Shown here piece after piece: positions 4,840 through 10,578 of a stretch of DNA of 59,696 bases. Origin of the DNA: Actinomycetota bacterium (GTDB lineage: Bacteria; Actinomycetota; Acidimicrobiia; Spongiisociales; UBA5794); assembly GCA_030123765.1 (NCBI GenBank), contig JASJXX010000006.1, positions 1 through 59,696 on the forward strand, given 5' to 3'. The position numbers were made by a program, and so were the translations under genes. The notes below the pieces were generated by a model. It made no database searches. It worked only from the letters and a program-made list of their open reading frames with translations, and was not told where the DNA came from. The number at the start of each line of letters is the position of its first letter. Position 1 is the stretch's first letter.

Positions 4840-6747
4840 GTGAATCGCACCGCGAGAACCATTCTCGTGTACCTCGCTGTCATCTTCCTCGTGGCGATGA
4901 CCTTCCAGATGGTGTTCAACGGGGCAACCCAGCCGCAGGAGTTGACCCTCACCGAGTTCACCGCGCAACTCGAAGCAGGTGATGTCACGGGCGAAATCGT
5001 GATGAAGGACAAGTCGAACGAGCTCAGCGGAACGATTGGGTCTGGCAGCGACGAGACAAAGTTCGTCGTCATATACCCGGCGGAGTATTCGGCAACACTC
5101 ACCGAACAGTTGCAAGCTGCCGGAGTCGACTTCCGCGTCGACGCGGAGAAGCCCACGGTCTTCGACTTTCTGCTCAGCTTCCTCCCCTACGTCCTGATTT
5201 TTGGTCTGTTCTTCTTCTTCATCATGCGGATGCAGGGCGGGGGGAATCGCATCATGCAGTTCGGGAAGTCTCGAGCGAAGCTGGTCACGAAAGACACTCC
5301 GAAGGTGCTGTTCTCCGACGTCGCAGGGGCAGAAGAGGCAGTTGAGGAGCTCCACGAGATCAAAGAGTTTCTCTCCCACCCTGAGAAGTTCCGCGCAATG
5401 GGGGCGAAGATCCCGAAGGGCATTCTGCTCTACGGCCCTCCGGGGACAGGCAAGACGCTCATCGCACGGGCAGTCGCAGGTGAAGCCGACGTACCCTTCT
5501 TCTCGATCTCCGGATCAGACTTCGTTGAGATGTTCGTCGGCGTCGGTGCTTCTCGAGTACGCGACCTCTTTGAGCAGGCGAAACAGAACGCTCCGTCGAT
5601 CATCTTCATCGATGAGATCGACGCAGTGGGTAGGCATCGCGGTGCAGGACTCGGGGGCGGGCACGATGAGCGCGAACAGACGCTCAACCAGCTGCTCGTG
5701 GAACTCGACGGCTTCGATCCCAATACCGGTGTCATCGTTATCGCGTCGACGAACCGTCCCGACATTCTCGACCCCGCACTCTTGAGGCCCGGGCGCTTTG
5801 ATCGGCAAGTCGTCGTTGACCGCCCCGATCTCAAGGGCAGGGAGGCGATCCTTGAGGTGCATGCGAAAGGTAAGCCGATGGCCGAGGGTGTTGATCTCAC
5901 CGTGCTTGCTCGCCAGACACCCGGTTTCACCGGAGCTGATCTCGCGAATCTCATCAACGAAGCTGCGCTGCTCTCCGCCCGGATCGACGACGACGTGATC
6001 TCAATGTCGTCTCTCGAGGAGGCTATCGAGAGGGTCATCGCCGGGCCACAGCGCAAGAGTCGTGTGATGTCCGACAAGGAGAGGAAAATCACTGCCTACC
6101 ACGAAGGTGGGCATGCTCTCGTCGGGCACGCCTTACCGAACGCGGATCCGATCCACAAGGTGACGATCATCCCGCGCGGCCGCGCAGGTGGGTACACCCT
6201 GTCACTCCCTGTCGAGGACAATTTCTACGTCAGGCGATCTGAGATGATCGACCAGCTCGCGATGCTCCTGGGTGGTCGTACGGCCGAAGAGCTCATCTTC
6301 CTCGACCCATCGACCGGTGCTGCGAACGACATCGAGAAAGCGACAGACATCGCCAGAAAGATGGTGATGGAGTACGGCATGAGCGAAAATCTCGGTCCGC
6401 TCCATTACGGAAAGCCTGACGGCGAGGTCTTCCTCGGCCGCGACTACACCAAGCAGAATAACCTCTCGAACGAGGTTGCGGCTGCGATCGACCATGAGAT
6501 CCGTCTGCTCATCACCCAGGCGCATGAGGAGGCACGACTCATCCTGTCGACTCATGAAGATGCTCTGCATCGCATAGCTGCGGAACTCCTTGAAAAGGAG
6601 TCTCTCGACGCAGGTGCCGTGATTGACATACTCAGCGACGTGCCGAAATGGAAACACGTGGGGAACGGAACCATCAGGTTGGAGGCGCCGAAGGGCGTCG
6701 AGAGTGTCCAGGGCAGTGTCGCCGCAAGCAGCGACACCGGCACCTGA
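4840..6747 (+). CDS. ftsH: ATP-dependent zinc metalloprotease FtsH
   Basis: 635 aa from GTG 4840, chosen because AAAGAGGAG precedes it; the track ORF extends 20 codons upstream. A membrane-anchored hexameric AAA+ protease. N-terminal TM (about residues 7-26), periplasmic/extracytoplasmic domain, second TM (about 108-130), Walker A GPPGTGKT (about 198), Walker [10 protein letters not shown], second region of homology, and zinc site HEGGH (about residue 420). The C-terminal tail is Ser/Gly-rich and somewhat shorter than in mycobacterial FtsH. The gene follows tilS-hpt as in other actinobacteria; folE, often found next, is absent and folP follows directly. Confidence 0.96.
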
Positions 6748-6755
6748 GCAGGGGC

Positions 6756-7634
6756 GTGTTGCAACACGCCGTCTGGCAGCTTCGAGGGTCGTCGATCACC
6801 CTCGATCAACCCATCGTGATGGGAATCCTCAACGTCACACCGGACTCGTTCTCCGACGGAGGTAAGCAGGCAACGATCGGTGCTGCGGTGAGGGCAGGCG
6901 TGACCATGGTGAGAGACGGCGCAGCCCTTGTCGATGTGGGAGGGGAGTCGACTCGCCCCGGTGCTGCACCCATCCCGGTCGCCGAGGAGCTCGCGAGGGT
7001 CATTCCGGTCGTTGAGCGACTTGTGGGCGAAGGCGTTGTCGTGTCGATCGACACATCCAAGCCGGAAGTAGCTCGTCGTGGCATCAAGGCGGGGGCGGCG
7101 GTGATCAACGACGTGACCGGACTTGCGGCTCCTGAGATGCGCGACATCTGTGCACAGGCTGGCGTCGGTGTCGTGATCATGCACATGCAGGGAACGCCGG
7201 AGACGATGCAGGCTGACCCCGAGTACCACGATGTCGTGGCTGAGATCTGCTCGTACCTCTCTGAGCGTGCCACAACCGCCCGGGATGCCGGGATTGGCAG
7301 GGACTCGATCGTTGTCGATCCTGGTATCGGGTTCGGGAAGACTCTTGCGCACAACATCGAGATCCTGAGACACCTCGATGCGTTCACTCCGCTCGGATAT
7401 CCAGTTCTTGTCGGTACAAGCAGAAAAGGGTTCCTTGGAGCGATTCTTGAACCGATACGTGGCGCGACGCGGCCAGATGAACGAGATGGAGCGACGGTTG
7501 CAACGGTCGCGCTCTCGGTCGCGAGCGGCGTGCAGATCGTTCGGGTCCATAATGTTCCCCTTGCGGTTGAGGTAGCGTATACCGCTAACGCTATGGTGCC
7601 CGCAGAGCATGATAAAGAAATCGACAGGACTTGA
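6756..7634 (+). CDS. folP: Dihydropteroate synthase
   Basis: 292 aa from GTG 6756, just after the ftsH stop; the longer track ORF would overlap ftsH. It condenses p-aminobenzoate with hydroxymethyl-dihydropterin pyrophosphate. Signatures: MGILNVTPDSFSDGG (about residues 22-36), DVGGESTRPGA, the VINDVTG segment and the C-terminal VRVHNVPL. Length is normal. It starts the folate segment folP - phosphatase-like - folK. The usual folB (and folE) are not in this cluster. Confidence 0.94.
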   Translation: MLQHAVWQLRGSSITLDQPIVMGILNVTPDSFSDGGKQATIGAAVRAGVTMVRDGAALVDVGGESTRPGAAPIPVAEELARVIPVVERLVGEGVVVSIDTSKPEVARRGIKAGAAVINDVTGLAAPEMRDICAQAGVGVVIMHMQGTPETMQADPEYHDVVAEICSYLSERATTARDAGIGRDSIVVDPGIGFGKTLAHNIEILRHLDAFTPLGYPVLVGTSRKGFLGAILEPIRGATRPDERDGATVATVALSVASGVQIVRVHNVPLAVEVAYTANAMVPAEHDKEIDRT

Positions 7635-8091
7635 ACCGAGAAGTTTTTGCTGGGTGATCAAGGATCGCCTTGCCGTGGCGGAGCGGATCGGGGGGTACGG
7701 CTTCCAGCATCGGCGAGTTCGCCGCGAGGAAGAGATCATCTGGCTCAAGGAACACGGTGTCAACACGGTGATGAGCCTGCTCGGATCCAACCAGAACCTG
7801 TTCGCGTACACAGGCGCAGGGCTGTCGTTCTCCTCGTTCGAGGTACCTGAAGACATCACCCCTGAGGATGCTGTGGCGGTCTTCAACGTCCTCGCGGATG
7901 CTCTCGCGCCCGAGGACGCGATCGTTCTCGTTCACCGTGACACGATTGACGACACTCTCTGCGGGCTACTCGCGGGATACCTCATGCACGCAGAGTTGGT
8001 TGACGATCCGATCGTTGCTACCGATGTCATTCAGCGCATTCTGGGCCGTGCAATCGGCCCGGAGGGTCGACGACTGATCCCTAAGCCTTAG
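7609..8091 (+). CDS. Protein-tyrosine-phosphatase-like protein lacking the catalytic Cys
   Basis: 160 aa; ATG 7609 overlaps folP by 26 nt and the gene ends 2 nt before folK. The N-terminal half reads like a dual-specificity phosphatase fold (PRSFCWVIKDRLAVAERIGG, then WLKEHGVNTVMSLL). At the place where the P-loop HCx5R should follow a beta strand it has VLVHRDTIDDTLCGLLAGYLM, so the catalytic Cys and the Arg are missing. It is therefore probably a pseudo-phosphatase with a binding or scaffold role. It occupies the slot where folB stands in related folate operons, but nothing in it resembles dihydroneopterin aldolase. Fold assignment is by eye. Confidence 0.55.
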   Translation: MIKKSTGLEPRSFCWVIKDRLAVAERIGGYGFQHRRVRREEEIIWLKEHGVNTVMSLLGSNQNLFAYTGAGLSFSSFEVPEDITPEDAVAVFNVLADALAPEDAIVLVHRDTIDDTLCGLLAGYLMHAELVDDPIVATDVIQRILGRAIGPEGRRLIPKP

Positions 8092-8093
8092 CC

Positions 8094-9437
8094 ATGCCGA
8101 TCGCGTACGTTGGCATCGGGTCGAACCTTGGTGATCGCCACGGGCATCTCAAGCATGCAATGCGAGGCATCGAGGCTCTGGGAACGATCGTTGCTGGTTC
8201 GCCGATGTATGAGACCGCACCCGTCGGCGGACCGGACCAGGGTCCGTTTCTCAACGCGGTCGCTGCTCTGGACACCGACCTCAGCCCGTACGCGTTGCTT
8301 CACGAAGTGCTCGGCATCGAGAGGGAGACCGGACGTGTCCGTCGTGAACGGTGGGGGCCCCGAACGCTCGACCTCGACATCCTGTGGTATGACGGGAAGA
8401 CGATCGATGAGGACGGTCTCACGATCCCCCACCCCGGGATCCGCGATCGGAGATTCGTGCTCGCGCCGCTCGCCGACGTCGTCCCGGGTCTCGCCGACTC
8501 CGATGGGCCCTACGCGGACGCGCTGGGCCAGGTAGCCGACCAGACGATCCAGCGAATCTCGGGGCCGTACGATACGCAGGAGCAACGTTGGATGGTCGGC
8601 ATCGAGGCAGCAACGGTGCTGACCGGTGACGGTGGTACGTTCCAGGTCGATACGCCAGCGGACTGGGAGAACCCGACCGGCGATATGTTCGGCGCGTTCC
8701 TATCGGCCGTTGTTCTCCGTGCCGTCGGCGAGGTCGCTGTCGGCCACCAGCCGTCTTCACTCACGTACCGCTTTGTGCATGGCGTCCCCCAGGGCGCTCA
8801 GATCGAGGTCGTTCCTGTCAAGGTCCGAGGGTCCGGGCGCTCCGCCGATTACGTCGTGTCGCTTCTGGTTGACGGGCGTGAGATGGGGCGAGCGTCCGTC
8901 TCTACCGTCACTGAGTCGAGGGCGGTCACGATCGCCCCGGAGATGCCGGGTGTCGTGCCACTCTCGAGGTGCACTCCCGTGGATGAGCTCTTCGCTCCAG
9001 TCGGCCGGCTGACCGGAGCTTCTATGCGAAGCTGGCGCCCGCTCGAACGATGGGACATCCCGGACCTCGTCGACGGCACAAGCGGAGTGTTCCGTGCGTG
9101 GAGCCCGAACCTGACCCTCGGCACGGAGGACCGATTTCTGCGAGCCGCGGCGATTCTAATGCCGATCGACGCGCTGATCTGGACGTCGACCATGCACCAA
9201 CTAGGGTTTCTCGGAAGCCGAAAGGTGGTTGTGACGCCGACCCTCGAATTCTCCGGACGGTTCCCTGACCTGGAACACGATCCCGGGTGGCATCTCAGTG
9301 AGGTGCACATCGAGCACATGACGGACCGATCCGTCTCCGGCACGATCCGCGTCTGGAGCGAAGACGGAAGCTACCTCTCTGTCGGCGCGTCCCACAACCT
9401 CGTGATCAGCGGCGAGAACCTGCTGGAGATCGTCTAG
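8094..9437 (+). CDS. folK: HPPK (FolK) fused to a TesB-like double-hotdog thioesterase domain
   Basis: 447 aa in a single open frame. Residues 1-160 are 6-hydroxymethyl-7,8-dihydropterin pyrophosphokinase: GIGSNLGDR, ETAPVGGPDQGPFLNAVAAL and RWGPRTLDLDILWY are all present. Residues about 170-447 look like an acyl-CoA thioesterase of the TesB-like double-hotdog type (GAFLSAVVLRAVGEV, HQPSSLTYRFVHG, VSLLVDGREMGRASVSTV). An internal ATG at 8592 (residue 167) has AGGAG 9 nt upstream, so a free thioesterase could also be made by reinitiation. No stop or frameshift separates the domains. The FolK half is certain. The thioesterase call is a fold-level judgement and its substrate is unknown. Confidence 0.85.
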   Translation: MPIAYVGIGSNLGDRHGHLKHAMRGIEALGTIVAGSPMYETAPVGGPDQGPFLNAVAALDTDLSPYALLHEVLGIERETGRVRRERWGPRTLDLDILWYDGKTIDEDGLTIPHPGIRDRRFVLAPLADVVPGLADSDGPYADALGQVADQTIQRISGPYDTQEQRWMVGIEAATVLTGDGGTFQVDTPADWENPTGDMFGAFLSAVVLRAVGEVAVGHQPSSLTYRFVHGVPQGAQIEVVPVKVRGSGRSADYVVSLLVDGREMGRASVSTVTESRAVTIAPEMPGVVPLSRCTPVDELFAPVGRLTGASMRSWRPLERWDIPDLVDGTSGVFRAWSPNLTLGTEDRFLRAAAILMPIDALIWTSTMHQLGFLGSRKVVVTPTLEFSGRFPDLEHDPGWHLSEVHIEHMTDRSVSGTIRVWSEDGSYLSVGASHNLVISGENLLEIV

Positions 9438-9540
9438 CAAGAGGGCGTGGGCTGTCCACTCTCGGTCGTGATGGTGCCGGGGGCACGCCCGCCGGAGACC
9501 CGACAGCCTGTCGAGCTACATCTCGATAGCCTACGGAGCC

Positions 9541-10578
9541 ATGCCCGACACGCAACCTACCGGCGTGCTGCTGCTTCAACTCGGCACTCCTGATTCCACC
9601 TCGACTAGAGATGTCCGTCGGTTCCTCGCCGAGTTTCTCTCCGATCCTCGTGTCATGGATGTGGCGACACCCATTCGCTGGCTGATCCTCAACGCTGTGA
9701 TACTGCCCTTCCGGCCGCGTCGCATAGCCGAGGCGTACCGGATGATCTGGTCAGAGGAGGGCTCCCCGCTCCTCCAGCACACCGAGGCTCTCACCAGCGA
9801 ACTCCGATCGAATCTTGGTGACGGCTACCTCGTCGACTTCGGGATGCGGTATGGCTCGCCATCGATCGCCGACGCACTCGAGAGGCTCATCGCCGGCGGC
9901 GCCACCGACATCCGAATCCTCCCGCTCTTCCCTCATTACGCTTCCTCCGCAGGTGGCTCCGCTACAGCGAAGACGATGGAGCTCCTCGCCGAGCGTTGGA
10001 ACGTCCCGGCAGTCTCGTTTCTCCCGGAGTTCTACGATCACCCGGGTTTCATCGCCGCTGTCGCCGGTGCAGCGAGTCGAGAGCTGGATCGATTCTCTCC
10101 CGACCACGTGCTCTTCTCCTACCACGGGTTACCGGAGCGTCAGGTGAGGAAGGCCGACTCGAGCGGAGGTCACTGCTTCGCTACCGATAACTGTTGCGAC
10201 GCCGTTGGGCCGGCGAACCGCAACTGCTACCGGGCACAGTGCTTCGCGACGACGAGAGCGGTCGTGTCCGAACTGAGTCTCTCGTCCGACTCGCACTCCA
10301 CGGCGTTCCAGTCGCGCCTTGCAGGCACGCCCTGGATCACGCCGCACACGGATCGCGTTCTTTACGACCTGTATGACTCAGGGATTCGCAGGCTCGCGGT
10401 ATTTACCCCTTCGTTCGTAGCCGACTGCCTCGAGACGCTCGAAGAGATCGGGATTCGGCTCCGCAAGCAGTGGATCGATCTCGGTGGTGAGGATCTGCTT
10501 CTTCTCCCGTGCGTCAACGAGACCCCCGTCTGGGTGGATGCAGTCTCCTCCATGGTGTCCACAGTGGAGCGGTCATGA
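9541..10578 (+). CDS. hemH: Ferrochelatase with internal Cys cluster
   Basis: 345 aa; inserts Fe2+ into protoporphyrin IX (or coproporphyrin in the alternative pathway). Conserved VLLLQLGTPDS start, catalytic His in FSYHGLPER (about residue 195), and FVADCLETLEEI with the catalytic Glu. Between about residues 208 and 230 there is a dense cysteine group (HC, CC, NCYRAQC; five Cys in 22 residues). That matches the known class of [2Fe-2S] protoporphyrin ferrochelatases whose four ligands sit in one short internal segment. First gene of the heme operon; hemF starts on its stop codon (ATGA). Confidence 0.94.
   Translation: MPDTQPTGVLLLQLGTPDSTSTRDVRRFLAEFLSDPRVMDVATPIRWLILNAVILPFRPRRIAEAYRMIWSEEGSPLLQHTEALTSELRSNLGDGYLVDFGMRYGSPSIADALERLIAGGATDIRILPLFPHYASSAGGSATAKTMELLAERWNVPAVSFLPEFYDHPGFIAAVAGAASRELDRFSPDHVLFSYHGLPERQVRKADSSGGHCFATDNCCDAVGPANRNCYRAQCFATTRAVVSELSLSSDSHSTAFQSRLAGTPWITPHTDRVLYDLYDSGIRRLAVFTPSFVADCLETLEEIGIRLRKQWIDLGGEDLLLLPCVNETPVWVDAVSSMVSTVERS

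Follow-up and report, generated by a model that had tools for sequence, protein, structure and literature searches.

The window, which is the whole 59,696-nucleotide stretch of DNA analysed, belongs to a genome of the UBA5794 family (Acidimicrobiia). The lineage consists of uncultured aquatic actinobacteria. Among the family's genomes is UBA5794 itself, which carries the label Acidimicrobiia, and the order has been described from sponges and from marine and inland waters (PMC12008989). At its folate locus, folK runs on in frame into a domain of predicted thioesterase fold. The features considered here are as follows.

6747–7634, plus strand: folP (dihydropteroate synthase), the upstream partner, start codon provisional (PF00809, 6.3e-82; conserved gene order)
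7609–8091, plus strand: conserved 160-aa protein between folP and folK (19 aligned orthologues; AlphaFold2 and Foldseek)
8094–9437, plus strand: folK-thioesterase fusion gene, 447 aa (open frame; full-length orthologues, 12 genomes)
8094–8567, plus strand: HPPK (FolK) domain, residues 1–158 (PF01288, 2.6e-38; Foldseek to HPPK structures; catalytic residues intact)
8578–8594, plus strand: AGGAG (8578–8582) with an in-frame ATG (8592–8594), a possible internal start by sequence, judged not functional
8592–9434, plus strand: predicted TesB-like double-hotdog domain, residues 167–447 (PF13622 and PF20789; model; Foldseek to 3rd7, 3rqb, 3cjy and TesB)
9541–10578, plus strand: hemH (ferrochelatase), a downstream neighbour peculiar to the window genome (PF00762, 5.9e-92)
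L161:8338–8362, minus strand: inverted repeat GGACCGATACC(N)GGATCGG, the window genome's copy; example in a relative at L045:6515–6538, minus strand
L062, L066, L071–L074, L020 and L057–L070: loci with other C-terminal additions to FolK

The gene order in relatives is metalloprotease, TilS, Hpt, FtsH, FolP, the 160-aa protein, FolK (with or without a partner), DUF2520, PanC, CoaX and LysS; DUF2520 was identified by Pfam, and the genes that we take to be TilS, Hpt, CoaX and LysS were named by eye from the sequence. The window follows this order through FolK and then continues with HemH. DUF2520-PanC-CoaX-LysS lie behind a tRNA gene on another contig (C42; L161), which places a rearrangement breakpoint at 9438–9541. 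In 18 genomes of the family the near-invariant inverted repeat occurs once per genome, directly 5' of the start codon of DUF2520-panC; in the window genome it has been relocated together with DUF2520-panC. It gave no Rfam match at gathering, only chance-level ones, and its folding was not clearly above that of shuffled sequences; it is possibly an operator or leader.

The 160-aa protein is 52–81% identical across the order (orthologues L045–L076), has no Pfam match and is kept even where folP is gone. Its model adopts the fold of dual-specificity/tyrosine phosphatases (best match in the PDB, E 1.7e-6), with HRDTIDDT-like residues in place of the catalytic Cys loop, and we predict a conserved pseudophosphatase. 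The genome encodes another HPPK, joined to GTP cyclohydrolase I (FolK-FolE; L002:799–1926, minus strand); it adjoins FolB-like and SDR genes and is found in most family genomes. FolK is known to occur fused and duplicated between folate and pantothenate loci, one copy with the folate genes and one with the pantothenate genes (PMC1971073), a habit that FolK-FolE fits.

The fusion gene is a single frame of 447 codons closed by TAG, with no internal stop or frameshift, and codon-position composition is even across the junction of the two domains. On base composition alone, the chance of 281 further stop-free codons is P ~2.6e-4. Residues 5–131 match HPPK well above curated cut-offs (PF01288, 2.6e-38, 131 bits against 25.7; TIGR01498, 8e-40, 136 bits against 54.1). 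The second half matches 4HBT_3 (PF13622, residues 188–270, E 3.5e-6) and 4HBT_3C (PF20789, residues 328–428, E 2.7e-5), both slightly over their curated cut-offs, and NCBIfam assigns it no family. So weak a Pfam match would be doubtful on its own, yet the predicted fold and the profile search agree with it. AlphaFold2, run with a 12-member family alignment, gave a model of the fusion with pLDDT 85.9 and pTM 0.87; its first half retrieved HPPK structures by Foldseek, including plant HPPK-DHPS 7mpy, and about 275 columns of its second half aligned with the Mycobacterium avium thioesterase 3rd7 (E 5.9e-18), with further matches to 3rqb, 3cjy and TesB of Yersinia pestis and E. coli. The original prediction of a complete FolK joined in frame to a TesB-like double hotdog is thus borne out by frame, Pfam, model and fold comparison.

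The source is a 2.2-Mb draft in 146 contigs (98.6% completeness), a state of assembly that could in principle hide a missed stop or frameshift near 8580. However, 12 genomes besides that of the window, whose public records stem from different projects, carry the same full-length architecture at 40–71% identity. Full-length orthologues lie in G001–G004 (the window's genus), G008, G011, G024, G025, G028, G031 and G036; in G019 the two parts of the gene lie at the ends of two contigs, which share the same 43 residues. Because these genomes encode the same fusion there is no missed stop: sequencing error is ruled out by the orthologues, and the probability of an artefact is close to nil. We conclude that the fusion is a real, vertically inherited two-domain protein.

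The AGGAG and ATG proposed as a separate start for the thioesterase are indeed present in the window, but the signals are not conserved, which leaves separate translation unsupported. None of the nine relatives compared has the AGGAG, and the codon matching ATG 8592 is CTG, CGT or CGG in G031, G028 and G036, so that a conserved internal start is ruled out.

The fusion is present in 13 of the 50 family genomes examined, spread over 6 of 20 genera. Sampling 395 genomes of the class and 397 of the phylum yielded no further fused copy; thioesterase matches beyond the family were weaker and came from frames without an HPPK part. A scan of contigs with the window protein as single query gave no match, and one with the thioesterase alignment returned 11 loci, all of them fused loci of the UBA5794 lineage. 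In a tree of the 13 fused thioesterase domains and 18 standalone relatives, all 13 formed one clade (100/99.9). The HPPK tree united ten of the fused-protein HPPKs (100/99) but did not resolve the position of the other three, from genera g5 and g16; a single clade of all 13 was not rejected (p-AU 0.35). Since the 13 thioesterase domains form one clade, the fusion most likely arose once and was then inherited. It would date to an ancestor shared by some members of the UBA5794 family, in which a 4HBT_3 gene was joined to the 3' end of folK.

The check originally suggested was whether related genomes have the domains fused or as adjacent genes. They are fused in the 12 genomes above, but the adjacent separate genes of the Rosetta-stone criterion were found in none of the unfused relatives, where DUF2520 or panC, and not a thioesterase gene, directly follows folK. 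Nor was a separate homologue of the fused-type thioesterase found in unfused family relatives. Other additions occupy the same slot at the FolK C-terminus. G005 and G014 have a uracil phosphoribosyltransferase there, families f2, f3 and f4 a PEMT/ICMT-like membrane methyltransferase, and G050 an APH-like kinase; of 45 FolK proteins compared, 17 end in a single hydrophobic helix. With the thioesterase this makes at least five different additions, and the FolK C-terminus is a fusion hotspot in the order. No established link with folate synthesis is known for any of these other partners. The unrelated partners, together with the missing separate thioesterase homologue in unfused family relatives, argue that domains are preferentially added at this slot, rather than that it marks a shared pathway.

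HPPK (FolK, EC 2.7.6.3) catalyses the ATP-dependent transfer of pyrophosphate to hydroxymethyl-dihydropterin. The window protein keeps the presumed equivalents of R82, W89, R92, D95, D97, H115, R121 and N55, in E. coli numbering transferred by motif. The active site is intact in 11 of 12 full-length fused proteins, the exception being G036. Residues 1–158 would thus act as an HPPK whose product, 6-hydroxymethyl-dihydropterin pyrophosphate, would pass to the FolP encoded next door.

TesB uses Asp204, Thr228 and Gln278 for catalysis (PMC4388271). The equivalents of the first two, Asp359 and Thr383, are invariant in 13/13 fused proteins; the nearby Trp363 is invariant as well. The counterpart of Gln278 is absent: none of the 13 has Gln at 433–435, although alignment puts a Gln at the catalytic position of nearly all standalone relatives (the correspondence comes from sequence alignment, not superposed structures, and leaves the Gln position ambiguous by one or two). 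For this reason we speak of a TesB-like fold, not of a TesB enzyme, and hydrolysis by this half is not assured; it may be an altered hydrolase or may instead serve in binding. The main rival to an active enzyme is a catalytically dead hotdog serving FolK as an oligomerisation or CoA/acyl-CoA-binding module, that is, as scaffold or sensor. The loss of Gln in all fused proteins fits this idea, as does the stable tetramer formed by TesB-type proteins, which comprises eight hotdog domains (PMC4388271). Asp359, Thr383 and Trp363 would not have to be invariant in a pure scaffold, however, and G036 retains this half although the HPPK to be scaffolded is degenerate; we regard a dead hotdog as a serious but rather unlikely alternative. 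As two of the three catalytic residues and Trp363 are strictly kept, we favour a hydrolase, in which residues 167–447 would form a TesB/4HBT_3-type double hotdog, most likely still able to bind and hydrolyse CoA (or ACP) thioesters, using Asp359 and Thr383 with the third catalytic position altered.

Two genomes bear on whether the halves depend on each other; both are drafts (93–94% complete; G036, 93%), and each statement of loss is limited by that completeness. FolP was not detected anywhere in G036, and folP is absent from its otherwise intact locus (L051) on a 41.8-kb contig. The FolK half is still in frame there, but its equivalents of W89, R92, H115, N55, R84 and Q50 are gone. With G028 as outgroup, the HPPK of G036 has accumulated 32 changes against 11 in its sister G011, about three times as many, whereas the thioesterase half has 17 against 34. 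The two proteins are 53% identical in the HPPK and 68% in the thioesterase half; in pairs without G036, the order is reversed and HPPK is the better conserved half. The halves are therefore separable in G036, where the thioesterase half appears to serve a role of its own, and this half seems to be under selection even without HPPK activity. In G016 (L160), by contrast, both halves have gone together with folP. What is left is a remnant of 44 residues from the thioesterase C-terminus, with a stop immediately ahead of DUF2520, so the thioesterase half does not always persist when FolK is lost. These apparently independent losses of folP and HPPK function suggest folate auxotrophy of G036 and G016. 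A loss of the gene proposed for G007 and G072 was withdrawn, as folP is truncated there, apparently at a contig end.

The degenerate HPPK, missing folP and kept thioesterase half of G036 argue against obligate coupling, in which the acyl-thioester reaction or the acyl-CoA level would act on pterin pyrophosphorylation through channelling or allostery and so link folate and CoA metabolism. The covalent link has been conserved since its one origin, and the locus joins folP and folK with panC-coaX in most relatives. Yet the panC-coaX cluster is not adjacent in the window genome, other genera have different partners in the slot, and we consider coupling improbable. The link between pterin pyrophosphokinase and acyl-thioester chemistry that had been proposed is possible but has found no positive support, G036 and the unrelated slot partners both speaking against it. 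Since relatives have folP on one side of folK and the panC-coaX cluster on the other, one may also imagine the hotdog half as an acyl-CoA/CoA sensor or variant thioesterase that links the CoA pool of UBA5794 with folate synthesis and was later freed of its folate role, for example in G036; this, too, we hold to be a long shot.

At the other extreme, the fusion could be a neutral read-through whose hotdog half has no present function. Many unrelated additions sit on FolK ends, and the whole gene was deleted in G016, as such a view would allow. However, the motifs are invariant over a deep clade and the thioesterase half of G036 evolves no faster than its sister's, which indicates purifying selection and makes neutrality highly improbable. 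We therefore prefer, with a probability of about 0.6, a bifunctional protein whose halves would be made together but act separately. The adjacent folP, the HPPK residues intact in 11/12 proteins and the invariant Asp and Thr support this reading, and substrate channelling would not be required to explain the data.

Fused enzymes usually share a pathway. A thioesterase-fold partner, apparently selected even beside a decayed HPPK, contradicts that rule and offers a clean test case. The slot cautions against reading function from a gene fusion by itself, and the at least five C-terminal additions to FolK in one order form a natural experiment that may show why certain proteins turn into fusion hubs; this broader pattern is of greater importance.

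The original prediction knew of no folate/thioesterase fusion, and we likewise found no description of a FolK-thioesterase or FolK-UPRT fusion in the open-access literature, which is weak evidence of absence as most subscription papers lie outside such a search. Hotdog domains occur in frame with another enzyme, as here, in LpxC-FabZ and HAD-4HBT; those partners belong to a single pathway and exist elsewhere as neighbouring genes, unlike FolK and the thioesterase, and the passages on these fusions do not mention HPPK as a partner (PMC516016). E. coli TesB and the structures 3rd7 (M. avium), 3cjy and 3rqb have in common with the fused half the double hotdog and the equivalents of Asp204 and Thr228; the fused half differs in its identity of 11–19% in the structural matches, the missing Gln278 equivalent and the HPPK attached at its N-terminus. 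Its nearest sequence relatives found are 4HBT_3 proteins that stand alone in other families of the Acidimicrobiia (L174, L175, L182 and others; E to 1.3e-30 over the whole domain), which share the W, Asp and Thr/Ser motifs but are unfused, nearly all carry the catalytic Gln and form a separate branch. Finally, like FolK and its known fusions (plant HPPK-DHPS, FolKE and Bifidobacterium FolB-FolK), the protein contains a complete HPPK with catalytic residues and is encoded beside folP; the partners known are other folate enzymes, whereas here the partner is a C-terminal domain of thioesterase fold.
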